21,715 bases of DNA. Source: a virus. Shown piece by piece: positions 2,313 through 17,322 of this stretch. Both the position numbers and the translations under genes were made by a program. The stretch covers positions 1-21,715 of IMG/VR virus record IMGVR_UViG_3300020400_000052; one strand, given 5' to 3'. Positions within the stretch are counted from its first letter, which is position 1. Each line of letters starts with the position of its first letter. The notes under the pieces are model-generated. The model did not search any database, was not told where the DNA came from, and worked only from the letters and a program-made list of their open reading frames with translations.

Positions 2313-2536
2313 TTAAACTCTATATCTTTACATTCTCTCTTTATAGCTTGGTAGGAACCTTCGACACCATTCCAGAATGTGCTGAAGCGGCAAGCAGAAT
2401 TTATGAAGATTACAGGTATGACAAAGAAATCAGATTTACAATGTATTGTGTAGATGATGAAGAAAGGCATCCGAAAATCAGCGAGAGGGGAGTTGTGCAG
2501 TTTGATGATTTACCCTTATTGCAACGGAAACCCTGA
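2309..2536 (+). CDS. Hypothetical small protein
   Basis: The 75-residue protein has a hydrophobic aromatic N-terminus (MIKLYIFTFSLYSLVG), two cysteines and an acidic middle (YCVDDEERH). The start ATG at 2309 overlaps the upstream stop as ATGA, and GGGCGAGA lies just before it, so translational coupling is likely. The 3' part overlaps the next gene by 83 bases in another frame. The N-terminus could be a weak membrane anchor or a β-strand. I do not recognise the family. Confidence 0.5.
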   Translation: MIKLYIFTFSLYSLVGTFDTIPECAEAASRIYEDYRYDKEIRFTMYCVDDEERHPKISERGVVQFDDLPLLQRKP

Positions 2537-2756
2537 GACAACTGTACTTTGTCATTTAGGTAGCATGAGGAAAGGCATGGCACTGAAGTCTGAGGATTAC
2601 TTCGCAGTCTATGCCTGTAGCAGTTGCCACGATGTCATTGATGGGCGAATGAAAACAGATCTATCAAAAGAAGAGATACTGAGATGTCAGATGCGTGGGC
2701 TTGAAAGAACCTGGAGCAAGCTAATTGAAAAAGGATTGGTGAAAATAAATGGATGA
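2454..2756 (+). CDS. YbcO-like (DUF1364) putative nuclease
   Basis: The 100-residue protein matches the phage YbcO/DUF1364 family, thought to be a small HNH-type, zinc-bound nuclease of lambdoid recombination regions. The signature is clear: IRKSARGELC at 6-15, CNGNPETTVLCHL at 23-35, then YACSSCHDVIDGR at 53-65. Candidate zinc ligands are C15, C23, C55 and C58, and H34 and H59 are candidate catalytic residues. Length is typical for the family. The start at 2454 (ATGATG) lies 83 bases inside the upstream gene, but the conserved RKSARG segment requires a start close to here. It overlaps the following gene by 8 bases. Confidence 0.85.
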   Translation: MMKKGIRKSARGELCSLMIYPYCNGNPETTVLCHLGSMRKGMALKSEDYFAVYACSSCHDVIDGRMKTDLSKEEILRCQMRGLERTWSKLIEKGLVKING

Positions 2757-2934
2757 TATCAAATGTTCTAACACGGTTTGCGACAACAAACGCCCTGTCA
2801 AACGAGATCCCAGGAAACAATGGTGCGACAAGTGCTATCCATTAAGAGTAGATCGCCAGCAAAGAAGAGAAAGAGAAATAGGAGAAGAACAAAGATTTTT
2901 TAACAGTCTTTGGGTAGTGGCTAAAAATGAATGA
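2749..2934 (+). CDS. Putative zinc-ribbon small protein
   Basis: This is a 61-residue basic protein with four cysteines arranged C6-x4-C11-x14-C26-x2-C29 near the N-terminus, consistent with a zinc ribbon, followed by an Arg/Glu-rich helix (DRQQRREREIGEEQRF). Such proteins often bind nucleic acid, but no specific family is recognised. The start ATG at 2749 overlaps the end of the YbcO-like gene by 8 bases. Its size and cysteine content recall phage Mu Com, the zinc-binding translational activator of mom. Because a Mom-like gene lies about 500 bases downstream this is worth noting, but it is only an analogy. Confidence 0.6.
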   Translation: MDDIKCSNTVCDNKRPVKRDPRKQWCDKCYPLRVDRQQRREREIGEEQRFFNSLWVVAKNE

Positions 2935-3106
2935 GTATCATAAAACTTTAGATTCTATCTTAATCTTGAAACAAATAACCATTGATGAATTTAATTTAAA
3001 ATTAAAAAAACAAATAATAAAAAACTTTAGTAAGTGGTATGGACTCACAAAAGAGGAAACAAAAGATATATTAGATATGTGGCTCAGTAAAAACCAGGGG
3101 AGGTGA
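2927..3106 (+). CDS. Small hypothetical protein (59 residues)
   Basis: The ATG at 2927 overlaps the end of the upstream gene by 8 bases. The frame runs to TGA at 3104-3106, one base before the next ATG, so it fills an otherwise empty 170-base gap exactly. The product is Lys/Ile/Leu-rich and mostly helical, beginning MNEYHKTLDSILILKQ and ending in WYGLTKEETKDILDMWLSK. DNA here is AT-richer than the genes to its left. No family is recognised. The tight fit between neighbours is the main support. Confidence 0.5.
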   Translation: MNEYHKTLDSILILKQITIDEFNLKLKKQIIKNFSKWYGLTKEETKDILDMWLSKNQGR

Positions 3107-3107
3107 A

Positions 3108-3437
3108 ATGCAACATAGTATTATGTTTGGAACAGAAGCACGAAAACTAGCTAGAAGAGATAGTCCAGACACTAGCAAGGAAGCTGCGGCTAAGCTAAAT
3201 CCTGCCGGGCTAGAGAAAGAAGTCTATGACGTAATTGCTAATGCAGGGCCACGGGGCGTGATCAGTGATGAGGTTCGTGCGGCCCTACCTCATGTCAGCA
3301 GTTATTCTAGCGTTACTGCACGATACAAAGCATTGAAAGAAAAGAATCTTATCGTAGCAACTGCAAAGAAACGCCCTGGCGTAAGCGGCAGAAATCAACA
3401 CGTTATGGTAGAAAGGAAATATCAGTTGTGGGATTAA
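3108..3437 (+). CDS. Putative winged-helix DNA-binding phage protein
   Basis: The 109-residue protein opens with a basic motif RRDSPDTSKEAA, common in small phage proteins of this kind. A region with winged-helix character follows: EKEVYDVIANAGPRGVISDEVRAAL (helix 1, a turn and helix 2), SSVTARYKALKEKNLIVAT (recognition helix and start of the wing) and a basic wing KKRPGVSGRNQHV. The ATG at 3108 follows an excellent ribosome site (GGGGAGGTG at 3097-3105). It could regulate the operon or act in replication. The fold is inferred from the pattern and no catalytic motif is seen. Confidence 0.6.
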   Translation: MQHSIMFGTEARKLARRDSPDTSKEAAAKLNPAGLEKEVYDVIANAGPRGVISDEVRAALPHVSSYSSVTARYKALKEKNLIVATAKKRPGVSGRNQHVMVERKYQLWD

Positions 3438-3440
3438 AAA

Positions 3441-4160
3441 GTGCTTCAATTTGAAAAGTTTATGATCAAGAATTACTCAGTAAAAAGTATTAAAAATAAA
3501 GAGTGTAAAGATTGGTTTTTAAATAAGCACTATGCAAAAAGGCTACCATCTATTTCATTCGCTTATGGATTATACATTGATAGTTGTTTAGAGGGTGTAT
3601 GTAGTTTTGGGCGGCCTATGAGCTTTACATTGATAAAAGGAGCATTAAACGGTTTATATAGGAATAGTTTTTTAGAATTGAATAGATTAGTAGTAAATGA
3701 AGGATTAAAGAAAAACACTCTTTCTTTTTTTATTTCGCAATGCTTTAAACAATTACCTAAGCCTTTGGTTATTGTTTCCTACGCTGATACATCTCAAAAT
3801 CATCATGGATACATCTATCAGGCAACTAATTGGATTTACACAGGCTTAAGCAACAAGTTTACAGATTATGCCGTTAGGGGTCTTGAACACATGCACCACT
3901 CATCAATTGAAGATAGTGTTGGCCGTTATGATAAAAATAAAAATATAGATAAACATACGTTGTTGAAAGAAAAGTACGGAGACAAATTATATTTGAAAGA
4001 ACGTCCTAGAAAACATAGATATTTTTATTTTTTAGGTACAAAAAAACAAAAAAAAGATATGCTTAAAAATTTAACTTATAAAATCTGTACTTATCCAAAA
4101 GGCGATAACAAAAGATATGTGTCAAACTATGTTCCTGCAACTCAACGTCTTTTATTTTAA
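3441..4160 (+). CDS. Mom-like DNA adenine hypermodification protein
   Basis: The 239-residue protein resembles the phage Mu Mom family, GNAT-fold enzymes that convert adenine in phage DNA to a carbamoylmethyl derivative and so protect it from restriction. Visible landmarks are NKHYAKR at 28-34, SFGRP at 55-59, ELNRLVV at 79-85, and the family block SYADTSQNHHGYIYQATNW at 113-131, followed by IYTG and a basic C-terminus. The start is uncertain: GTG at 3441 is four bases after the upstream stop and has no clear ribosome site, while ATG at 3462 also lacks a strong one but matches a typical N-terminus (MIKNYSVKSI). A weak start would fit controlled translation, as for Mu mom. The gene is visibly AT-richer than its neighbours, suggesting separate acquisition. 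It is the last gene of the plus-strand operon. Confidence 0.75.
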   Translation: MLQFEKFMIKNYSVKSIKNKECKDWFLNKHYAKRLPSISFAYGLYIDSCLEGVCSFGRPMSFTLIKGALNGLYRNSFLELNRLVVNEGLKKNTLSFFISQCFKQLPKPLVIVSYADTSQNHHGYIYQATNWIYTGLSNKFTDYAVRGLEHMHHSSIEDSVGRYDKNKNIDKHTLLKEKYGDKLYLKERPRKHRYFYFLGTKKQKKDMLKNLTYKICTYPKGDNKRYVSNYVPATQRLLF

Positions 4161-4287: not shown

Positions 4288-4563
4288 CTATTTTTTCTTT
4301 TTTTTGTAGTTTCTTGCTCTGTTTTTTGCTTTGCTCTCTATTTTAATACCGTCTTTATTGCTTCCCCCACGGCTTAAAGCCTTCTTGTGGGATACATCTT
4401 TGCCTTCTCTTTTGTCTGCTTTGCCGTTCTTATTTTTGTCAACGCCTGTTTTATCTAGCTTTCTCCTGGCACGTTGCCGCTCCATCCTGGCTTTGTGTTC
4501 GCCCCTTGCTTTCTGCTGTTTATATTCTTTCTTGTATGGCCTTGGCTTGTTTTTATATGGCAT
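4288..4563 (-). CDS. Lys-rich HNH-like small phage protein with EF-hand-like loop
   Basis: The 91-residue, extremely basic protein has the segment GKDVSHKKALSRGGSN (54-69) followed by SKAKNRARN. This resembles the DV(D/S)HK-x-PL-x-GGS...NR pattern of small HNH-type proteins in marine phages, although the canonical HNH triad cannot be confirmed. Just before it, D42-x-N44-x-N46-G47-x-A49-D50-x-x-E53 fits the spacing of a calcium-binding EF-hand loop. Its ATG lies 2 bases after the stop of the giant gene, making it the last gene of the minus-strand operon, with a weak ribosome site. Packaging-associated nuclease and nucleic-acid condensing protein are both possible. Confidence 0.6.
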   Translation of the reverse strand: MPYKNKPRPYKKEYKQQKARGEHKARMERQRARRKLDKTGVDKNKNGKADKREGKDVSHKKALSRGGSNKDGIKIESKAKNRARNYKKKKK

Positions 4564-4565
4564 AG

Positions 4566-7500
4566 TTATTCAATCTGCTCTAAGTATTTAAGCACATCAG
4601 TCGGAAAAACATTATCTGAGTACCTGTCTTGTAAAAACTTTCGATACTCTGATTCTGAAACATCTCTATCTACAAAAATAGGTATTTGTGCCGCTGTTTT
4701 TATAGCATAGATACTTGCATCGTAGCTATCTATCATTTTATCAAGCTCATCTATTTGTTGTTTTTTTACCTCCGCAGGGTAGTCAGCTTGCATAATGACT
4801 TTTTTTCTTTTTCTGAGATCTGATAGTTTTTCGCCTATATTTTTAATTGATTCTCTTTCATCTACGAGAAGATTAGCATATGCAATGTGTAGTCCTCTTT
4901 TCTCCTCATCACTTGCAGTTTCCGTTTTTAATGATGTTGTGGCTTGATTCAAAATCTTTTTCATATCGTAAAAATCTTGCAATGCCCCAGTGTCATACTT
5001 ATCTCTAAAAAACGCATTAACAAAAGGATAGTCCCACCAATCTTGGTTAGAAAAATCTAGCCCCTGGCCCGGTATAACTTTTGTTTTGTCCCCTTGAACT
5101 AGCTCAGACCTAATCGCTGCATCTGTTATCCCTAAGAGATACTGTCCAATTCCTGGCAAGTAGCTCTTCATAAGATGATCTATCTTGATTGGACTACTTC
5201 CAGGGATAACATTAGCTATTCCTTTTGCTAATTCAGAAGTATAAGGAGTTTGTTGATACCTTGGGAAAACAGAGGTTTCAATGTAAGACGGGACTATTTG
5301 TCTTCGACTAAACGTATCAAAATTCATTGCATACTCATAAAAAGGAGAAATAGCCTGTATCGCAAGAGGATTAAACGCTAGTCCCTCCGCAGTACCAAAG
5401 ACAAATCTTTCCACTGTTTCTTTAAGTTCAGTTGGCGTTGTCCTACCTTCTCTATCAGAGTACATGTCTGCTATTCTTTGAGGGATGGTGTAATAAAATA
5501 TTCCAGCCTCAAACGGGAGAGGGAATAAGAATGGAACCCCAGAAGGGGTGGGAATAACAATATTTAGATCTCTAACTTCATCTGGCGTATCTTTAAATTG
5601 TTCATCATCTCCTGTTAAAGCTAACATTGCTAAAGAAGCAAAGGTGAAAAGAGAGCCTCTTGCTAAAGCCGTCATAATCTGTGTACTTGCTTCCGCAGGT
5701 TTACCATCTTTGCCAACAATGGCAAGATTTCTTCCTGTCTGCGCTCTGTAAAGAACATCTAATCCTTGATATCTAGCGTTTAGAAACGGAGTCAATGATG
5801 TCATCATTCTTACCGAGGGAGATCTGCCTCTTCTGCCAAAGTTAAGAACCTCAGAAGCCCCAAACACAGCGGCTGCTTCGCTTCCTGTTCTCGCCAAAGT
5901 ATCTTTGTAGACAGCCATTCTGGTAGCTGCGTCACTAGCAGTAGTAATATCCCCAGACAACTCCCATAAACGAACAAGATAGTTAGCAAGCGGTATTTTG
6001 TCTCTGAGTCCACGCAACCTGGTGGCTTGTTGTTCTCCCGTTTCGATATCCAACTGCGCTTCGTACTTAGGAATTTTTACTCCTTTTTCTGCAAAAAACT
6101 TTCTCATTGCCCTTTTCATGTCATCAGGATCTCTGAGATTGTCGTAGCCGCCCACAACTCCGTATTTGCTTAATTCTGCCATCCCTCCAAACATGCCCTT
6201 AAATGTGTCAAGCACAGGTATGTAGTTGGAGCCAGCACTAATGAAAGCAGAAAAGGTATCTCGCAAAAGGTTTTTAACTATAAAAGTTGGCCTCCTGGTA
6301 ATTAACTCACGCATCACAACAGCAGGGATACCAAGCATTTTTATAATTATGTTATCGTAGCTTTCACTCATTGGTAGCAAGCTTTCATAAACTAAGGGAT
6401 CGTCTATGTGGAAGGTTACTTTCTTGCCTTTTACTCTGAGGCTTACTGGTCTGTTGTTTGGATCGTTTTCTCCCTTGACTATTTGCCTTGCCATCCCAGC
6501 TTCCATCATGTCCCTGATGACTCTCTGCTGAGCAATGTTTTTCATGCCAAGCTCTGTTGCCATAACAAGATTTCTTGTCACTGCATCAAGAAGGGGGACT
6601 GTCAAAGACCTTTCGCTACCTTTAATTGGTTCTAGTTTCACAGCGGAGGACATGCCGCCAAACACAGAAGGATATTCCGCTGGCATTTGCTCTCCCTCTG
6701 CCTCTCTATAGAAAGGAACGTAGTCGGAATAGTTTCTCCAATCCTCTGCTTTTTCAGAATCAAGCACACCTGCTTTTTCTAGGAAGGTAATTGTTTTCTC
6801 GTTATAGGCTTGCCAGGTTTCGTATACCTCTTTAATTATTGGCTGGCCCGTTTCTGAATTAACAAACTTGTTAACTTCCTGCTCAATCTTTTCTAGATCA
6901 CCTTCTTTAACTGGCGTTTCTTTACCCTCTGCTCTAAGCCTTTCTGCTCTCATTCCTGCAAAGTAGGCTCCAGCTAATCTCTCAAGAGAGACTCCATATT
7001 CGTTTTGATATAAAGGAATAAAAACATCTATCAATCCACCAACCTCTTTGCCTTTGAACACAAAGGGTTCTGTTTTAACTACGCCATTTTCGTAGACTAC
7101 CGCACCGTGTCTCATTGCATCAGCAGATACTGCTCTATTTCTGTCTGCCATAATTAAAGCTACGAAAGCACTAGACTCATAATCTCCAAACTTGAGATCG
7201 CCTTTGTTGTAAAGCCTCTCTAATTCAGCGTAATTAAATACGATGTTTTGTTTTGCTTTCGTTAGGTAATACATCCACTTGCTTGTATCAGTTACCTCAA
7301 CAAATGTTTCGCCAGCAGTTTTTCCTTTTTCAGCTTCCCTAGATATTCTGTTAACAACTTCGTTTCCTTCTTTGCTAAGATCCGGGCTGTTACTTCTGGC
7401 ATATCTATCTAGCAATGTTTGAGAGGGTTCTAATGCCTCCTCCGGGTTTCTTGCTACATATTGCGCTTCGGGGTCAGCGTCTATGGCAAACCTTGGGATA

Positions 7501-10500
7501 AGGTTAGAAGCTTTTCTGTTTTCAAACTCGTCTATGTTTTTCTGGACGGCTTCTTGTATCTTAGCAGGCGTTCTTGTTCTAAGTTTTTTCTCGTTTGATC
7601 GAACATCGCTATCTCTGGAAAAACGGTCTTGAACCGCAGGCTGCATGTTCTCAGTCTGTATATCCACCGCCTGATCATAAGAATTAGCAAGCGTCCCATC
7701 AGAGTTGCTATATGGTTTATAGTTTTTAGGATCAAACACCATGAAAACAACGTCTGGCTCACCGTTTTTGTATATTTTGTAATTTGTTTTATCCCAATCA
7801 GGGGGAGCCTCTTCAGGGCTAAATGGAAGTCTTGAAACTGCTTTAAATCCATTTAAAGAATATAAATGAGGCAATTCTGTATCAAATGCATCTAGCTTGC
7901 TGCCACCTAGTTCAGTGGCTAACAATAAAGACGAAACGGTTGCATTTGAGTATGTAGATTCTATATCTTTAAAAACACTTACAATGTCTCCGTCTGGCTT
8001 AATTGCAAATCCAGATGACATGTCTTCAGACAAAAAGACCTTCATCTTTTGATAATCTGATTCTGGGTAAACGTATACGGAGGATGCGTTAGGATCTTTT
8101 TCTTTGGCTATATTGATTGCGTCTACAAAAACATTTGCATCTTGACCTGACAACTCATAAAAGTTGATAGGGCTAACATTTGCATCTTTAAGTCTATTTG
8201 TAGGAACTTTATCTATTTTGTAAAACGATAAAGGATTTATTTCTCTTTGGGTTCCGTCTTTTAATAGGACTGTAGTCTTCTTTCCAGTTCTTCTAACGTA
8301 AGACCTGGGTTCTCTTTGAGGATTCTTGCCTCCATAGAGTTGCCTTCGTAACTGGGAGATGATTCTTGGTTTTGCGAAACGCCTCTTTTTTCTTTCAGTA
8401 ACTGCTTTACCTTTCGCCTGAAGAGACTCGTATTCAGTCCGTCCAGGTGATCTTTGTCTCCCTCTGACCAGGGATTGTATGGCGGTTGCTGCTTCATTTT
8501 GTGATGCTCCTCTCCTAACTAGCTCTGCTGTAGCCATGTTTATGGCTTCTGCTCCATAGTCTCTGTTGGCAGGTTCTGCTGTTCTTGCCCCACTTTTCCT
8601 ATAGAAAGCCTGTTCAGGATACCATATTAACGCCTGAATTGTAGCCTCATCTGTATTAATTCCTGCGTCAGCCAATATATTTTTGGCTTTTTCCATTGTT
8701 TTTCTTATGAATGCTCTATGTCTTGCACCGCTAGGACTAAGACTTCCACCCATAAAATTGTTGATCGCTCTAGCCGCTTTAAATATTGGCAAATCTTTTT
8801 CTTTAAAATCTTCAGAGGATACTTTATTAAATACTTTCTTTGCTTCGTTAATTATTCCGTCTTCGCTTTCTACGATTGCTTCCCTGTCGATGTTAAATTT
8901 CTCTACCATTTCCGGGGTAAGACTGTTTTGGAATAATTGTATATTTTTATTGAGTAGCTCTGCGTTGCCTGAGATGAGGGTTCCTGTCATTCTCCCCCAG
9001 GTTCTCATAAACCACCTATCCATAGTGGTTAAACTAAGATTTCCCATCAGGTTAGGAAAAAACGCACCGCCCACTTTCGGGCCAAATATAACGCTGAGAG
9101 GCAATAATGCATCTGCTGCTTCGCCTGCTATTTTAGACTTCAGCCCCATACTATTAATCACCCTGACAGGGAACTCTGACATCAACATTTCTATTGTGTC
9201 TATCGCACCCAGATCAGATATCAACCCATTAATAAGCGTGAACTGTTTTTGCATTGCTTGTGATTCTTTACCAAAACCAACAATAGGAAATTTTCTTTGG
9301 TCTACGTTATCGCTAGATTGTTTGTAGGCAGTGTAGACCTCGTCAGCAAACACCAGGTTAGTTTCTACTGGCTGACCGTTTGATGTAATAGCAAGGGCAA
9401 GCTTAAACATACTTCTCGCTGTTTGGTCTGTGGTAAGCTCTGGATGGAAAACAGACATGGCAGAAATCATGGTATCTAAAGATTCTTTGTACCATTCTGT
9501 GGCATTGTCCCTGCCTCGCAACGCCATCACTGACTCAGCAGCTATCATTCTAGCTATTATTTCTGATTGCTCTTCGCTAGAAAAATCATCCATCTTTTCA
9601 CCGAAGGCATTCTGGTATCTTTGCTGCAACTCTTGTAGCAGTTCAGGAATGGTTTTTGACCCATAGGGTTGCTCAGTGAAGTTTGGATTGTAGAGAGTAG
9701 AAAGGAGAGAGACTTGATATTCTTTGTCGTTAAGTTCTGTTGGGTTATTTCTTGAAAATCTGTCTTTAATGTTTTGTTGATAAAGATTTACATGTTCTGA
9801 AGAAGGCAAAACTCCCCTATCTTCTTTCTTTTTTGCTCCTTTTGGCTTTCTGTCTTGTGGAGCAAGGCTATCTACATACTTTGTAAATTTGGGCAAAAGC
9901 TTTTTAAGAGTTTTGGGGTAAAATCTTTTTAACTCTTTAATTGACTCTCCAGTTAAGTCTTTGATTCCTAAATTTCTTTTTTTAATTACTTCTGGCAAAA
10001 GAGGAACATCTTCTGTGTTCATTCTTTTTCTTATACTTTCTAACTGTTTTGGCGTTAAAGCTTTGCCAAGTATTTTAATTTCTCCGCTAATTAACCAATT
10101 TCCCTCCATGTTGGGATTAGTTTTATAGCGATAATAACCAAATTCTGGAACTTCTTTTATTTCTGCTAATTCAGCAACAAATTCTCCATTTTCCTTAGTC
10201 CCATTTTCCTTTGCCATTTGTGACCATTTTTTAAATTGGTCTGCTCCTACCTGTACTTTTGCCCAGACTTGATTAGCTTTTCTGTAGTTAACTTCACCAT
10301 CTCCAGTAGCCGCTTTCCCTCCTATGTGAGTAGCAGATGGACGATCCCCAGAATGCATTCCCGGTCTATAAGCAAGAACTGTATACTTTGTGCCATCTAT
10401 TTCTACGGTTCTGCCTATGCTAGATACAACGCCAATAATATTGCCGTCTTTACCTCTGACGGGTTGTCCAGACTCGGCAGCAACCCATTCGTCTGTAACC

Positions 10501-13500
10501 ACTTCTTCTTTAGAATCAACAAAAAGAGGATAAAAGGAAGCCCCATCTTTAACTTCTACAGTCATTTTATCTTCATCAACAATGACTTGATCGTTGTCTA
10601 CTCTAAATAATTTATATGCATCTTTGGTTTTTTTAGGAACCCTTGTGTTTAGTTTAAATTTGCTTTGTCTGCTCATTCTGTCATTGATTGAAGCAACCAC
10701 CTCTGCTTCAGAGTTTGGGTCTCCTGGGTTTAATTCTTCAGTTAAATCTACTTGCTCAAGGTCAATATCTGGCCTTTGTGGGGTTCTGATAGTAGGTACT
10801 GGCTCATCTGGCACTGTGTCACCAGGCAATGGAGGAAGCAAATCAGCAGGAACTCCCAGCCGCTCTAGCTCCCTAGCGGATCTCATCTGGCCCCTTTCTC
10901 TCCCACCCACTTCTCCGCTTTCGATAGACGAAACCAGTTCTTCAAAGGTTCTAAAGCCCACCCCATCTATGACATTAGCCATGCCTTTAACGAAGTTAAT
11001 GATTCTTTGCACCAAGGTTTTTGGTTTTCCGCTTAGTTTGTTTTTACCACTAAACGCACCTTTCCCTGCCCTTGCATCCCTGACCAACTCTGCGATGCTT
11101 TCTTCTACTTGATCAACCTCTCTAAACTCTGGATAGTTTTGTTGCGCCCACTCAAAATATGTCTGCCCAGGGGCTTTATTTCGCTGTTTAGCGGTTTTTG
11201 TAAGAAGCCTCCACTCAGCATCCGTAAACAGGTCTAACGCCCTCATAGCGTGTATCTGTTCGTGTGTAAGGATTTCTACAATTTGGTCTATTCTTTCTTC
11301 TATAGGCAGGTCAGGAGACACCCTATCCAAAGCCAGAAATATTTGTCCTGTGGCATCTGAGTAGAATCCATCTCCATCAGGGGTAGTGCCATCAACTACA
11401 AGCGGAGAGCCTTCTCCACCGAATGTTTCTACGCCCTCTTCGTTTGCTTCTCTTTGCCTGATTCCATAAACTAAATTTCCGTTTCTGTCTCTACGAACAT
11501 TTCTAAGAGCATAATCAACATTTGCTTTTACATCTGACAAACCAACTTCATTCATTGCCTCATTAACGGCTTCACGGACTTGTTGTATGTCTGTGCTTGG
11601 CCCTGGTAAAGCTAAAGGCTCTTGCTGTGTTTCTTGGGTGGTTTCAGGTGCAGGGTCTTTGCTAAAATTAATTAAATCAGTTGGTCTAGAAAATTTAGGT
11701 AAAGATCTAATTTTTGAAAGAACTAATTTCTTTTCCCCGGAGGTAAGATCAGACGTTTTGCTAACTTTCTTGCCAACAATTTTTGATACAAGGGCGTTTA
11801 CTTCAGGAGAGTCTGCTTTGGAAGATATGTTTTTGCTTTCTAAAGCCGACTGTAAGTCTTCGTGTAAAACCTCTTCTGGTACAGCGGCAGTGCCTCTGTT
11901 CTTGTTTAGCTTTTCTGCAAACGCTCTCGCTTCTCTTTGCGTCTTAAACGGGTATTTTTTGTTTTTATCTGGCCTTTTGCCAGCTTCTAACTGATCCTGA
12001 TATTCTTTAGCTGTTAAACGCTTGCCTCTGAATCTTTGTCCGTTTGATGAAACAACGACTATTTTCCCGTCAGATTCTTTATCTACTTGATATGTTTCTG
12101 TTTCCAGGGTTGTGTTTATTTTAGGGTCACCAAGATTGCCAAACTTCTTTCCGAGAACTTCTCTGGCTTCTTCAACGGTAAAAGAATTAGTAGGCAACAA
12201 ACCTTTCTTTTCTCTGTTAGCGTTTATTTTTTGAGATACAGTGTACTTTGAAACAGGTAGGTTCTTTTTTCTTTGGTCAAGTAAAGAGGCAGTTTCATCA
12301 AATCCTTTATCAACAGTAGTGTCTCCTGCCAGGTTGACAGCGGATGATGTAAAAGTGGTTTGTTCTGGATCAAGAACGGTGACACCGTATGATGCCATTG
12401 TTTTGGTATCATCGGTAGTGAGAGGTTGTCCGTTAGAAACAATCTGTTGAGACACAGTATTGTTTATTTTTGTTTTTTTTCTTTGATCGCTAAGAACAGA
12501 AGCAAACTTAGCTGCATCTTCATAAGAGTTTAACGGCTGTCCAAATCTTTGTTCACCAACAACAACTTCGTACTTTCTTTGTGGTTGGCCGTTTTGATCA
12601 GTTTCAATGCTTCCTTCAACAACCTCAAATTCACCCTCAATAGTAGCAAAGTCAGGGCCAATAGTTTTTGCAACGTGTACAGCAGATCTTTGTATAGGAT
12701 CTCTACCTCTAGCCGATACTGTAGGGCCAAGAATTATTTCATTGGCCTCTGTTTCTGAAGCACCTTTAGAAATTAATTCTTGTTTTCGTTGATTTTCTTC
12801 GGCAAACAAATCTATTTGATCTGGAGAAACATCTTTTTTTCTTTTTATATATTCAATAGTTGAGTCCATAGCTTGAACTCTTAAAAGATCTCTTCTTCTT
12901 GCTTTTAAAAACTCAAGCTCTTTATTAGTTTCCTCTGTTTTAAAAACTTTGTCTGAGGCTTCAAGCTCGTTTATTCTTTCGTTTAATATGTTTAGATTTA
13001 AATCAACATCTAAGTCAACTTTTGGAAGAGAATCGCCTTTTGCTACTGAAACTGATTCTGCTATATCTTCAATGGCTTTATCTTTTGATTTTCTTAAATT
13101 CTGCTCATGTTCTTTTTGCGCACTATCATTTATGTCAAATCTTTTACCTCTTCCCACACCCTGCAACAAGCCAGTGGCAAAATCTGTAATTGCACCAGCG
13201 GCAAAAGATACTGTGGCTTCTCTGCTGGTAAACACATCTTTGAAGAATTCGGGATCTAGATTGGTCATCTTCCCGTACAGACTGTCATCAACATTGAGGT
13301 CTGGATTGTAGACGTTTGCTTCTATTGCATCGTCCAAGATGCTTGCTGTTTGCTCCTGAACTGATTCAAAAAGACCAGAGGCTCCTATTTCTTTAAGTCT
13401 ATTAAATATTTTTCTTTTTAATGGAGCATCTATATCACCAGGTATTCTTTTAAATATATTCTGTATAGGAGCCATTTCTGAAGCACCGACTAGGCTGTGC

Positions 13501-14159
13501 AGAAATACACCTAAATCTTCTTGTCCTTGAGAAACATCAACGCCTGATTCTCTGGCGGCATCAATTCTTTCTGACCCTCTTCCTGCGCCACTTGTTGTAG
13601 CTACAGCATATCCCAAACCAGGACTAGCGGCCCCACCTGCCATGAAAGCCGCCATAGAGCCTAATGCACCACCAAAATCCGTTGCCCAAGTATCTTTGTA
13701 GGCATCGTCTACTTCAAAGGTTTCTCTTAAAGAATCTTTTTGTCTTTTGGCAAATTTTGTAAGCGCACTCTCATCACTGATTACGTCTTCCAAACCAACA
13801 AAATTGGTTGCTGCATCAGCTAGTTCTGCTGTACCACGAAGAGTATCTAAGGGGACACTAGCAAAGTCCTGCACCATTCTTTGCCCAAACGCTTGTGCTT
13901 GGTTAGGTTTTTGTTCCGCTGTTAGTCCAGAAAGAACTGTGCCTAAAATTGATCCAGCACCAACTGCTTGGGGAGCTATTCCTTCGTCTGCTTTAACACC
14001 AAAATCTACTTCTTCTTCTTCTTCTTCAGCAACAAAATCTACAAAATCTGATTCTTTTGCAAGACCAAGACCGATAGCAGCATTTTTTATTTGTTCTTTA
14101 GGTGTTCCTTCAGGAACATCTGTTAACACTGCCCCGTTGGGTAACGTAATGTCTAACAT
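4566..14159 (-). CDS. Giant polyvalent virion-associated protein (3197 aa)
   Basis: One unbroken 9.6-kb frame encodes a multidomain protein of the 'polyvalent' kind that phages are thought to eject into hosts. In order: a short N-terminal module (ITLPNGAVLTDVPEGTPKEQ); a Glu6 tract at 45-50; Gly/Ala-rich hydrophobic helices around 165-195 and 310-335; coiled-coil regions at about 360-470; three related repeats starting near 544, 619 and 737; a zincin-like HEQIH at 966-970; a block with YRPGMHSGDRP around H1269; an HhH-GPD glycosylase-like core with K1695 and D1714; a GNAT-like segment at about 1985-2145; and a long helical region (YVPFYRE near 2480, RRPTFIVKNLLRD near 2622, an apolar helix near 2840) resembling LPD38-type domains. 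The C-terminus is charged and helical. The ATG overlaps the upstream stop by one base (TAATG), with AGGA 6 bases before it. I see no N4-type RNA polymerase motifs, and no lytic transglycosylase motif stands out by eye. Confidence 0.8.
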   Translation of the reverse strand: MLDITLPNGAVLTDVPEGTPKEQIKNAAIGLGLAKESDFVDFVAEEEEEEVDFGVKADEGIAPQAVGAGSILGTVLSGLTAEQKPNQAQAFGQRMVQDFASVPLDTLRGTAELADAATNFVGLEDVISDESALTKFAKRQKDSLRETFEVDDAYKDTWATDFGGALGSMAAFMAGGAASPGLGYAVATTSGAGRGSERIDAARESGVDVSQGQEDLGVFLHSLVGASEMAPIQNIFKRIPGDIDAPLKRKIFNRLKEIGASGLFESVQEQTASILDDAIEANVYNPDLNVDDSLYGKMTNLDPEFFKDVFTSREATVSFAAGAITDFATGLLQGVGRGKRFDINDSAQKEHEQNLRKSKDKAIEDIAESVSVAKGDSLPKVDLDVDLNLNILNERINELEASDKVFKTEETNKELEFLKARRRDLLRVQAMDSTIEYIKRKKDVSPDQIDLFAEENQRKQELISKGASETEANEIILGPTVSARGRDPIQRSAVHVAKTIGPDFATIEGEFEVVEGSIETDQNGQPQRKYEVVVGEQRFGQPLNSYEDAAKFASVLSDQRKKTKINNTVSQQIVSNGQPLTTDDTKTMASYGVTVLDPEQTTFTSSAVNLAGDTTVDKGFDETASLLDQRKKNLPVSKYTVSQKINANREKKGLLPTNSFTVEEAREVLGKKFGNLGDPKINTTLETETYQVDKESDGKIVVVSSNGQRFRGKRLTAKEYQDQLEAGKRPDKNKKYPFKTQREARAFAEKLNKNRGTAAVPEEVLHEDLQSALESKNISSKADSPEVNALVSKIVGKKVSKTSDLTSGEKKLVLSKIRSLPKFSRPTDLINFSKDPAPETTQETQQEPLALPGPSTDIQQVREAVNEAMNEVGLSDVKANVDYALRNVRRDRNGNLVYGIRQREANEEGVETFGGEGSPLVVDGTTPDGDGFYSDATGQIFLALDRVSPDLPIEERIDQIVEILTHEQIHAMRALDLFTDAEWRLLTKTAKQRNKAPGQTYFEWAQQNYPEFREVDQVEESIAELVRDARAGKGAFSGKNKLSGKPKTLVQRIINFVKGMANVIDGVGFRTFEELVSSIESGEVGGRERGQMRSARELERLGVPADLLPPLPGDTVPDEPVPTIRTPQRPDIDLEQVDLTEELNPGDPNSEAEVVASINDRMSRQSKFKLNTRVPKKTKDAYKLFRVDNDQVIVDEDKMTVEVKDGASFYPLFVDSKEEVVTDEWVAAESGQPVRGKDGNIIGVVSSIGRTVEIDGTKYTVLAYRPGMHSGDRPSATHIGGKAATGDGEVNYRKANQVWAKVQVGADQFKKWSQMAKENGTKENGEFVAELAEIKEVPEFGYYRYKTNPNMEGNWLISGEIKILGKALTPKQLESIRKRMNTEDVPLLPEVIKKRNLGIKDLTGESIKELKRFYPKTLKKLLPKFTKYVDSLAPQDRKPKGAKKKEDRGVLPSSEHVNLYQQNIKDRFSRNNPTELNDKEYQVSLLSTLYNPNFTEQPYGSKTIPELLQELQQRYQNAFGEKMDDFSSEEQSEIIARMIAAESVMALRGRDNATEWYKESLDTMISAMSVFHPELTTDQTARSMFKLALAITSNGQPVETNLVFADEVYTAYKQSSDNVDQRKFPIVGFGKESQAMQKQFTLINGLISDLGAIDTIEMLMSEFPVRVINSMGLKSKIAGEAADALLPLSVIFGPKVGGAFFPNLMGNLSLTTMDRWFMRTWGRMTGTLISGNAELLNKNIQLFQNSLTPEMVEKFNIDREAIVESEDGIINEAKKVFNKVSSEDFKEKDLPIFKAARAINNFMGGSLSPSGARHRAFIRKTMEKAKNILADAGINTDEATIQALIWYPEQAFYRKSGARTAEPANRDYGAEAINMATAELVRRGASQNEAATAIQSLVRGRQRSPGRTEYESLQAKGKAVTERKKRRFAKPRIISQLRRQLYGGKNPQREPRSYVRRTGKKTTVLLKDGTQREINPLSFYKIDKVPTNRLKDANVSPINFYELSGQDANVFVDAINIAKEKDPNASSVYVYPESDYQKMKVFLSEDMSSGFAIKPDGDIVSVFKDIESTYSNATVSSLLLATELGGSKLDAFDTELPHLYSLNGFKAVSRLPFSPEEAPPDWDKTNYKIYKNGEPDVVFMVFDPKNYKPYSNSDGTLANSYDQAVDIQTENMQPAVQDRFSRDSDVRSNEKKLRTRTPAKIQEAVQKNIDEFENRKASNLIPRFAIDADPEAQYVARNPEEALEPSQTLLDRYARSNSPDLSKEGNEVVNRISREAEKGKTAGETFVEVTDTSKWMYYLTKAKQNIVFNYAELERLYNKGDLKFGDYESSAFVALIMADRNRAVSADAMRHGAVVYENGVVKTEPFVFKGKEVGGLIDVFIPLYQNEYGVSLERLAGAYFAGMRAERLRAEGKETPVKEGDLEKIEQEVNKFVNSETGQPIIKEVYETWQAYNEKTITFLEKAGVLDSEKAEDWRNYSDYVPFYREAEGEQMPAEYPSVFGGMSSAVKLEPIKGSERSLTVPLLDAVTRNLVMATELGMKNIAQQRVIRDMMEAGMARQIVKGENDPNNRPVSLRVKGKKVTFHIDDPLVYESLLPMSESYDNIIIKMLGIPAVVMRELITRRPTFIVKNLLRDTFSAFISAGSNYIPVLDTFKGMFGGMAELSKYGVVGGYDNLRDPDDMKRAMRKFFAEKGVKIPKYEAQLDIETGEQQATRLRGLRDKIPLANYLVRLWELSGDITTASDAATRMAVYKDTLARTGSEAAAVFGASEVLNFGRRGRSPSVRMMTSLTPFLNARYQGLDVLYRAQTGRNLAIVGKDGKPAEASTQIMTALARGSLFTFASLAMLALTGDDEQFKDTPDEVRDLNIVIPTPSGVPFLFPLPFEAGIFYYTIPQRIADMYSDREGRTTPTELKETVERFVFGTAEGLAFNPLAIQAISPFYEYAMNFDTFSRRQIVPSYIETSVFPRYQQTPYTSELAKGIANVIPGSSPIKIDHLMKSYLPGIGQYLLGITDAAIRSELVQGDKTKVIPGQGLDFSNQDWWDYPFVNAFFRDKYDTGALQDFYDMKKILNQATTSLKTETASDEEKRGLHIAYANLLVDERESIKNIGEKLSDLRKRKKVIMQADYPAEVKKQQIDELDKMIDSYDASIYAIKTAAQIPIFVDRDVSESEYRKFLQDRYSDNVFPTDVLKYLEQIE
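7725..8207 (-). other. GNAT-like segment within the giant protein
   Basis: Residues about 1985-2145 run from FYELSGQDANVFVDAI through FAIKPDGDIVSVF (D2056) and LLLATELGGSKLDAFDTELP to HLYSLNGFKAVSRL and VVFMVFDP. The strand-helix pattern and the final LY-x3-GF are typical of GNAT acyltransferases, but the usual acetyl-CoA loop (Q/R-x-x-G-x-G/A) is degenerate. The activity is therefore unknown. Confidence 0.4.
8880..9662 (-). other. HhH-GPD DNA glycosylase-like domain within the giant protein
   Basis: Residues about 1500-1760 include VIFGPKVGGAF and TTMDRWFMRTWGR. The Lys of GPK (K1695) and the Asp of MDRW (D1714) are 19 residues apart, the same spacing as the catalytic Lys and Asp of human OGG1 (K249 and D268), with a G-x-K-V match at the hairpin. 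The block AITSNGQPVETN upstream is also conserved-looking. The fold is inferred from this pattern only. Confidence 0.45.
9990..10607 (-). other. Conserved block with RPGMHSGDRP motif within the giant protein
   Basis: Residues about 1185-1390 read as one globular unit: YKLFRVDNDQV, FYPLFVDSKEEV, WVAAESGQP, LAYRPGMHSGDRPSATHIGG (H1269), VWAKVQV and FGYYRYKTNPNMEGNWLISG. The pattern recalls a domain shared by large proteins of phages and conjugative elements, but I cannot name its activity. The invariant-looking Arg, His, Ser and Asp hint at an enzyme, possibly a nucleotide-using one (inference). Confidence 0.4.
10980..11492 (-). other. Zincin-like metallopeptidase domain within the giant protein
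   Basis: Residues about 890-1060 contain ILTHEQIHAMRAL with H966, E967 and H970 forming HExxH. They are followed by a W/Y-rich helix region and VEESIAELVRD (E1019, E1020, E1024), where a third zinc ligand is expected in gluzincin-like proteins. Polyvalent phage proteins often carry such zincin modules (family knowledge). It could process the giant protein itself or cut host proteins. Confidence 0.6.
14010..14027 (-). repeat. (TTC)6 trinucleotide tract encoding Glu6
   Basis: Six perfect TTC units on the plus strand encode six consecutive glutamates (residues 45-50) of the giant protein. Slippage here would change the length of an acidic linker without breaking the frame. Confidence 0.8.
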
Positions 14160-15773: not shown

Positions 15774-16829
15774 CTAACCTCTCAATGCTCTATACAGACC
15801 TAATCCACCAATGCCAGCACCCAACGCTTGTTGCATGGCTGTCGGCCCACCGTACAATGATCTTGTTTGTTCTGGAGATACAGGCAATCCTTGCAACATC
15901 TGACTAAACAGATTAAGTTGTTGGACAGGATACGTTTTCTGTCTGAGGAAGTCTTCGTATCCCATGTCAAGAGATCTTTGATCCATGCCTCTTCTGATCT
16001 CACCAATACCGCCCAATGCTCCAAGTCTTTCAAGAGCCATTGCTTGGTCTGCCTTCCCTAGATCCGCTAACATTCTAGCCGCATCTAGTGACTGACCACG
16101 CATTGCCATATCTTGGCCTAGTCCAGCAAGCCCTAATCTAGCTCTTTGTTCCATCAATGCAGCATTCTGTTGCCTTGCCAACATACGTCTTTCGTCTTCT
16201 ATCTGCCTGCTTCTCCTGTCTGCCTCAATCCCTTGCATGGCTTGTTGATAAGCTGCTAGTCCGCCTTGTGCCTGAATGTCATCTAGTCTCTGCCCAAGAT
16301 TTCTCTCTCGCTCTGCTTGCATGATGGCTTCTCTATAACCACCTAAACCTCCTGCTTGAGCAGCTTGTCCTGCTAGTTGATTAGCCTGTATATCTGAGTC
16401 TCTTCTGGCCTCTCGCTTAGTTATATCAACGACTTGTTGCTGATACGGATTCATGTATCTGCCAACCATGTATGGGTTGGCTACACTGCCACCGTAGTAG
16501 CCACTTCTCTGGTACTCAGGCTGAAACGATCTAGCTATATCCATTCCTTGGCCTGTGGGCTGATACCCCACTTGAGTAGCTATATCTGTTGCAGATCCTA
16601 TCTGTGAGGGCGCACCCTGAACTGCTAACTGTGCAGTGCCTTCCTGCGCCAAACTCTCATAAGGATCAAAGTATGCTAGTCTTTGCCCAGGATAAGGGGC
16701 ATAAGGCTGTGTGGTTTCGTATAGCGTTCTTCCTAATAGCTCTTCGTAATAGGGTCTAGCGTACTCAGGGAGATTAGATTGAACTACCTCACTTCGAGTA
16801 GTGCTTGGCCCACTTGATCTACCGCCCAT
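15774..16829 (-). CDS. Marine-phage structural-type protein (351 aa)
   Basis: The protein opens MGGRSSGPSTTRSEVVQSNLP, then has EYARPYYEELLGR, a Tyr/Gly/Pro-rich part with PYMVGRYMNPYQQQVVD (about 118-134), and a long Arg/Gln/Ala-rich helical region (about 135-290) with repeated alanine and arginine pairs. The C-terminus is Gly/Leu-rich (QALGAGIGGLGLYRALRG). The YMNPYQQQVVD block is familiar from marine phage virion gene clusters; no activity is known to me. AAAAGGAC lies 7 bases before the ATG. The gene overlaps the GNAT-like gene by 11 bases at its start and is followed after one base by the 537-residue protein gene. Internal virion or tail component are both plausible. Confidence 0.65.
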   Translation of the reverse strand: MGGRSSGPSTTRSEVVQSNLPEYARPYYEELLGRTLYETTQPYAPYPGQRLAYFDPYESLAQEGTAQLAVQGAPSQIGSATDIATQVGYQPTGQGMDIARSFQPEYQRSGYYGGSVANPYMVGRYMNPYQQQVVDITKREARRDSDIQANQLAGQAAQAGGLGGYREAIMQAERERNLGQRLDDIQAQGGLAAYQQAMQGIEADRRSRQIEDERRMLARQQNAALMEQRARLGLAGLGQDMAMRGQSLDAARMLADLGKADQAMALERLGALGGIGEIRRGMDQRSLDMGYEDFLRQKTYPVQQLNLFSQMLQGLPVSPEQTRSLYGGPTAMQQALGAGIGGLGLYRALRG

Positions 16830-17322
16830 TGTTTATGTCCTTTTCGTAAAATACCGCTGTTTCCTCATAGCCAGCTTTCTTCATCCACTGGCTAAATCCT
16901 TTTCTACCCCAAAACTCCACACAATCGCACCCAGTTTCTTGTGCGTATTGTTCTAACTTATTGAGAACACAAGTAAAAATAGAAGTTTTGGTTTGATTTT
17001 CTATGCCCCCTGCAAACTGCACCGCTAAAGATAGTTTAGTTGGGTAGGGTATGAATTGAGTCGTTAAGACAGAAGTTATTTCTTGATCATCATCAAACGC
17101 TACCCACAACTGCTGATCGCCTGTCATTAAAGATTGATATAGATACTCAATGTTCCAACGCTCTTTTGATTTATCGACACCACCTTGCAAAAGTCTTTCT
17201 GCATCCTTCCAGACTGAATTAACAAAATTAGGGGGGACTAAAGTGACGGTGTACTCTGGCATACCGCTTTCTTCGTTTGACGCTAAATCAAAGCCTTCTA
17301 TTGGTTTGAGTTGTGCTTTCAT
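16819..17322 (-). CDS. GNAT-like phage protein
   Basis: The 167-residue protein has an alternating α/β layout with LWVAFDDDQEITSVLTTQF (central strands), a helix NKLEQYAQETGCDCVEFWGR, and the ending KGFSQWMKKAGYEETAVFYEK, which matches the final strand-helix-strand of GNAT acyltransferases. The C-D-x-V-E-x-x-GR-x-GW/F pattern is common in small proteins encoded beside phage virion genes, where substrate and activity are unknown. The ATG at 17322 has a strong Shine-Dalgarno (AAAGGAGGAG on the minus strand, 17333-17342) about 10 bases away, inside the upstream gene. The start overlaps that gene's stop by four bases and the 3' end overlaps the next gene by 11. It may acylate a virion component, or may be a degenerate GNAT with a structural role. 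Confidence 0.55.
   Translation of the reverse strand: MKAQLKPIEGFDLASNEESGMPEYTVTLVPPNFVNSVWKDAERLLQGGVDKSKERWNIEYLYQSLMTGDQQLWVAFDDDQEITSVLTTQFIPYPTKLSLAVQFAGGIENQTKTSIFTCVLNKLEQYAQETGCDCVEFWGRKGFSQWMKKAGYEETAVFYEKDINNGR

Follow-up and report, generated by a model that had tools for sequence, protein, structure and literature searches.

A giant frame at the end of a head/ejection block

What is the protein of 3197 residues that closes the head and ejection genes of a marine-type phage, and does its single chain act whole or in pieces? The locus lies in a 21.7-kb viral fragment (IMGVR_UViG_3300020400_000052), the full 21,715 nucleotides of which constitute the window analysed here. The opposite (plus) strand is interrupted by stops throughout positions 4566-14159; the first-pass annotation, which named no strand, had placed the intact frame exactly, and it runs from ATG to stop on the minus strand (Table 1).

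Seven genes on the same strand precede the giant gene, in the order gp10-like, two small genes, a 629-aa gene, an acetyltransferase-like gene, an ejection-type gene and a 537-aa gene, and the giant gene closes this P22-like block. That it ends a virion gene cluster, as first proposed, is confirmed by the neighbouring genes and by synteny: the stabilisation gene is kept in Roseobacter phage CRP-902, DSL-LC04, Planktothrix phage Pag-Yong1 and Pelagibacter phage HTVC027P, where the last gene of the block differs widely in length (about 676, 1068, 2772 and 1342 aa, respectively), and an acetyltransferase gene is similarly placed in JC1, CRP-902 and ct8d5349. In P22, the stabilisation/ejection block ends with the gene for the gp16-type ejection protein. 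The present protein resembles it in this block-end position only, being about five times longer and multi-domain, and it showed no sequence similarity to the syntenic 'DNA transfer protein' of DSL-LC04.

Another counterpart is the 'DarB-like' gp69 (4515 aa) of the Bcep22-like Burkholderia phage JC1. It sits in the equivalent position of a block that likewise runs from head closure through a small gene, an acetyltransferase and genes for ~330 and ~510 aa to the giant protein, with minus-strand genes beyond, and 51 unique peptides of it were detected in purified virions, in a paper whose text mentions LPD38 (PMC9144972). Unlike the present protein, gp69 carries its own cargo (helicase-like HepA and others) and a DarB-like antirestriction label, and the likeness drawn here is one of position and of the published account. 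Since this syntenic protein was detected in virions, the present one is, by analogy, likely to be a virion component as well.

Table 1. Coordinates in the window of the giant protein, its modules and border tags, and the preceding genes (res, residues of the giant protein).
Feature	Position	Strand	Evidence or remark
Giant polyvalent protein, 3197 aa (P0001)	4566..14159	-	one unbroken ATG-stop frame
N-terminal region, res 1-361, Gly/Ala-rich, ejection-protein-like (putative role)	13077..14159	-	35% identity to L008 giant protein, res 79-361
Conserved N-terminal/zincin region, res 406-1096	10872..12944	-	in L008, L119/L195; HMM matches in most LPD38 relatives
Border tag 1, PKFSR, res 821-825, before zincin	11685..11699	-	like KPYSR/KPYTR at 759-824 in L196, L212, L215, L216
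Zincin motif HEQIH, res 966-970	11250..11264	-	H, E, H invariant in 31 relatives
Zincin downstream EE, res 1019-1020, candidate third zinc ligand	11100..11105	-	invariant in 31 relatives
Border tag 2, DRMSR, res 1160-1164, zincin/RPGMH joint	10668..10682	-	counterpart IAYSRR in L008 just before RPGMH
RPGMH module, res 1165-1420	9900..10667	-	phrog_30118 E 3.9e-33
Border tag 3, DRFSR, res 1466-1470	9750..9764	-	counterpart IAYSRR in L008 after RPGMH
DUF7178-superfamily, glycosylase-like module, res 1505-1902	8454..9647	-	alignments A4, A6; hhalign to DUF7178 family E 5e-16
GNAT-like module, res 1962-2175	7635..8276	-	phrog_2563; Microbacterium phage minor capsid C-terminus; Foldseek NatB prob 0.82
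Border tag 4, DRFSR, res 2178-2182	7614..7628	-	edge of local alignments
Border tag 5, variant DRYAR, res 2251-2255, before C-terminal region	7395..7409	-	orthologous to LxxEDxxx[FY]SRxNxP in relatives
Conserved C-terminal region, res 2326-3141	4737..7184	-	PF18857 E 3e-30, phrog_9854 E 1.5e-36
LPD38, res 2852-3018	5106..5606	-	PF18857 E 3e-30; 106 bits, cut-off 27
gp10-like head-closure/DNA-stabilisation protein, 616 aa	19734..21584	-	phrog_3287 E 2.8e-74; 41% identity to DSL-LC04 'stabilization protein'
Ejection-block protein, 629 aa	17319..19208	-	conserved neighbour
Stand-alone acetyltransferase-like gene, 167 aa, within ejection block	16819..17322	-	phrog_7642, weak phrog_1249
Ejection-type protein, 351 aa	15774..16829	-	phrog_4287 'DNA ejection protein' E 4.9e-9
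Upstream virion/ejection gene, 537 aa	14159..15772	-	neighbour conserved in L008

Separate families along one chain

The first-pass annotation had called for profile searches and for a comparison of domain order across relatives. The searches returned the families PF18857, phrog_30118, phrog_2563 and phrog_9854. LPD38 (PF18857) was the sole Pfam family detected, in agreement with the LPD-like region that had been proposed, and the PHROGs profiles detected RPGMH, the GNAT-like module and the C-terminus. A single-sequence search found no close relatives of the C-terminus. E-values of the related-locus search are relative to the candidate stretches, the loci it yielded being given here by L numbers, and single-chain AlphaFold models were built from alignments of 27-35 sequences.

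The zincin motif noted at the outset proved sound, with H966, E967, H970, E1019 and E1020 all invariant in an alignment of 31 sequences; Pfam gave weak SprT/M76/M1 matches only. HExxH is present in the zincin region of all 36 complete non-redundant LPD38 relatives, and HExxH of some family in 44 of 48 LPD38 proteins. LPD38 proteins without the present zincin mostly have another HExxH within the first, N-terminal third, where a zincin, sometimes of another family, nearly always lies.

The RPGMH block had been described as uncharacterised. It belongs to a PHROGs family, its AlphaFold model is confident (pLDDT 94.3, pTM 0.89), and comparison with PDB sequences and PDB folds gave nothing significant, no PDB fold match being better than E 0.7. 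Several ART toxins are among the best of these fold matches, all of them poor (E >1, prob at most 0.10), so a likeness of the modelled fold to ADP-ribosylating toxins is a hint only; a comparison with predicted viral structures reached E 0.001 for uncharacterised proteins alone. Since viral contigs in their hundreds contain RPGMH (confirmed relatives, 390) and bacterial genomes seldom do (13 loci, L276-L288), it seems to be a mostly viral domain.

The proposed glycosylase-like core stood in part. It is a homologue of the DUF7178-type family (hhalign 98.7%), with Lys1695 nearly invariant and Asp1714 invariant, while the onward link to HhH-GPD glycosylases is weak: the K and D of the DUF7178-like family align on the HhH-GPD signature GVGRKTAN...VDTH of Nth (endonuclease III) at E 4.5e-4 and prob 33%. 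A direct profile-profile comparison of the module (D5) with Nth was not significant, PF00730 (HhH-GPD) had no match in the window at E 10 and none in 27 family members, and no glycosylase was among the 50 best Foldseek matches listed. An HhH-GPD DNA glycosylase is therefore unsupported by Pfam, by direct profile-profile comparison and by Foldseek, with the DUF7178 bridge as the sole, weak link, and because these direct tests failed we keep 'glycosylase' as a lead.

The GNAT-like segment fared better, sharing 41-43% identity with the C-terminal part of minor capsid proteins from Microbacterium phages and matching Streptomyces phage genes annotated as acetyltransferase, in addition to phrog_2563. 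AlphaFold pLDDT is mostly >90 in this region, and Foldseek, given the model of the glycosylase-like and GNAT-like modules together, returned NatB (prob 0.82) and RimJ (0.63) at E >0.1. The acetyl-CoA loop (Q/R)xxGx(G/A) is not evident, its expected place reading ESTYSNATVS, and the counterpart in L005 keeps GAGRS. We regard the GNAT assignment as fair, with a catalytic CoA site not evident in the present copy.

Modules are shuffled among phages

Different relatives of the giant protein have different subsets of its modules in common with it. In L008 the N-terminus, zincin, RPGMH and C-terminus are present, and the D5-type glycosylase-like module and GNAT are absent, replaced by a divergent domain that belongs to the DUF7178-type family. 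L005 (Limnohabitans phage DC33) shares the glycosylase-like and GNAT-like modules only, and L012 has these two in reverse order. As the glycosylase-like module was also found in 57 of the 88 GNAT-module frames fetched, the two appear to travel together; the DUF7178-type superfamily occurs in 22/36 complete LPD38 relatives. The complete set zincin-RPGMH-glycosylase-like-GNAT-LPD38 was found in this protein only, and neither its set nor its order of modules was matched in any relative among the frames fetched. Aligned in this way, the relatives show that RPGMH, DUF7178/glycosylase-like and GNAT-like modules are exchangeable cargo within a frame formed by the N-terminal region, the zincin and the LPD38 C-terminal region.

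ART-PolyVal or other YHGT-type ADP-ribosyltransferase-like cargo is also common in LPD38 proteins, YHGT being found in 11/36 relatives (residues ~2312-2452 in L071). The record of L005 says Inoviridae; this is probably a record error, since the gene content (39 kb, with giant virion-type proteins) is tailed-phage-like.

Proteins of this kind are known. The main text of Iyer et al. 2017 (PMC5512222) describes polyvalent proteins, in which several unrelated domains, among them a zincin MPTase, LPD38 and GNAT, share one phage chain, and proposes that such proteins enter with the DNA and are processed by the MPTase. The family is recognised by at least two disparate domains per chain, here zincin, RPGMH, DUF7178-like, GNAT-like and LPD38, and by a zincin-like MPTase (the commonest hub domain) and an LPD domain, both of which are present. 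On the other hand, the words 'glycosylase' and 'linker' are absent from that main text, and the passages considered report no border tag and name no cut site. The early suggestion that the domain combination may be undescribed held among the frames fetched; since the kind of protein is already described there, only the combination and the border tags described below are new. MuF polymorphic toxins (Jamet et al. 2017, PMC5576092) likewise have swappable C-terminal modules on virion proteins, and the GNAT-like module itself also ends a Microbacterium phage minor capsid protein, whereas the present protein carries several modules per chain and no MuF domain (no Pfam match at E 1).

A short tag recurs at the joints

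Between the modules of the giant protein and of its relatives, a short peptide recurs, with a consensus of roughly [DE]x[PI]x[FY]SR[RK]xxP and a core of roughly [DE]x(1-4)[FY]SR. It was first noticed in this protein and in L008, where IVYSRR precedes the C-terminal region. The pattern was changed once before testing, from [RK][FYML]S[RKLM] to [FY]SR, because the former missed the counterpart tags of L008.

For counting, we fetched 80 loci by the C-terminal region only, unselected for the tag, which gave 42 non-redundant proteins. Their cargo regions contain 27 [FY]SR, compared with 11.6 (sd 3.7) in shuffles, and five control motifs showed no excess there; the cargo-region tag is absent in 26 of the 42. 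Just before the C-terminal region, [FY]SR was observed 28 times versus 2.5 in shuffles, a figure that is not independent evidence, as it reflects a single orthologous site. The excess tracks the LPD38 C-terminus more clearly than the present zincin, which was unsupported as a predictor of tag number (MWU p 0.07).

We then expressed the position of the tag as a border index, the proportion of local alignments that begin or stop close to a site instead of running through it; its strict form disregards alignment ends inside the tag. In 112 non-redundant proteins, a set that includes relatives in which the tag was first noticed, the strict index of [FY]SR was 0.486, compared with 0.178 (sd 0.036; reached in 0/200 random sets) for random positions in the same proteins, and eight control tripeptides stayed at background. 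Proteins L071, L086, L220, L233, L256 and L257 carry four to six copies each, and all six tags of L071 lie at most 2 aa from an alignment end. The tag serines mix TCN and AGY codons, even within a single protein, and follow background usage, which argues that selection acts on the tag peptide. Across these alignments, [FY]SR marks module joints and is kept at the protein level.

An independent giant protein of an E. coli phage has the tag at three sites, and tag-bearing phages include PhiR5_2, with E. coli MG1655 as listed host, whose giant protein reads FYSR, QYSR and YYSR at residues ~1459, ~1690 and ~1893. The P1 proteins DarB, DdrB and DarA contain no [FY]SR and were rejected as tag carriers, a distinction that rests on a criterion of the present analysis, outside the family definition. 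In the archaeal Methanosarcina virus MetMV (L317), a giant protein at 4599-13607 has an LPD38-type C-terminal region 43% identical to that of L071 and a pre-C-terminal tag, QPMFSRSDNPDY.

A candidate route from ejected chain to separate modules

The first-pass annotation had read the locus as an ejected multi-tool protein acting early in infection, and this is the best reading, supported by the several independent modules, LPD38, the zincin, the position closing the ejection block and the virion-proven JC1 gp69. We consider it somewhat more likely than not that the protein is a virion-packed, ejected LPD38-type polyvalent tool kit. The chain would be loaded into the head, would exit with the DNA via the P22-type ejection proteins encoded alongside, and would be cleaved at the tags or beside them, its own zincin being the likeliest protease. 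Cuts at the main tags would yield a channel/N-terminal piece of ~824 aa, a zincin of ~340, RPGMH of ~305, a glycosylase-like plus GNAT piece of ~710 and an LPD38 piece of ~1020 aa, and each freed module would then reach its own host or DNA target within minutes of the start of infection. The zincin of polyvalent proteins is proposed, in the main text of Iyer et al. 2017 (PMC5512222) and on grounds other than the tags, to release single functional units, and the tags are positioned where such release would need cuts. Weighing against cutting are the many relatives whose cargo region has no tag, the P1 Dar proteins that lack it, and a tag excess that tracks LPD38 more clearly than the present zincin.

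The tags might instead be docking or unfolding signals, for example for head loading or channel threading, on an ejected chain that stays whole. We think this unlikely, if the most serious of the alternatives: the tag excess follows the LPD38 C-terminal region and not one zincin family, and the related, zincin-fused N4 vRNAP is packaged unprocessed according to the same main text (PMC5512222), whereas a zincin of some family is nearly always present in LPD38 proteins and the tags lie between modules, as expected of cut sites. That the tags are natural end strands of particular domains (the start of RPGMH, an ART-like tail), which would make their border position trivial, is very improbable; [FY]S[x]RxKPxPK does precede many RPGMH modules, and bacterial relatives have tails such as DIRFS/DVRYS, but the same tag stands beside non-homologous modules in each of the six multi-copy proteins named above, and the window's own RPGMH is predicted to fold confidently without it. 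Least probable is a linker left by module swapping, a shared stretch of DNA recombination of no protein function, for although modules do recombine at tag places, the mixed serine codons disfavour a DNA joint and the flanks [DE]..P.. are conserved as residues too.

If the tool kit is indeed cut at its tags, LPD38-type phages could further share a processing code, in which [DE]x[PI]x[FY]SR joints are recognised by interchangeable zincins; this we put forward tentatively, as possible rather than probable. Were it true, the injected giant would be a polyprotein whose cargo is freely swappable while the tag is kept. The finding bears on the means by which a giant injected phage protein can bring in several unrelated activities together: the recurrent joint tag provides exact, testable candidate cut sites in many phages and a simple way to split many unannotated giant proteins into their modules. 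It also draws attention to two unexplained cargo families, RPGMH and DUF7178-like, that are common in viral contigs.

Genes beyond the end of the giant gene

Directly after the giant gene, the window encodes a strongly basic protein of 91 aa (4288-4563, minus strand; phrog_4590 E 3e-7) with an HNH-like stretch, DVSHKKALSRGGSNKDG. On the opposite strand lie a weakly matched NinB/Orf-like recombination mediator (1088-1567), an SNase-type nuclease (1512-1976, PF00565) and a YbcO-type nuclease (2454-2756, PF07102). Past the end of the giant gene and convergent with it, a plus-strand gene encodes a Mom-like DNA modification protein (3441-4160; PF25680 E 4.9e-39, phrog_1384 E 1.6e-58), and the phage therefore probably modifies adenines in its own DNA, which may have a bearing on its carrying a glycosylase-like module.
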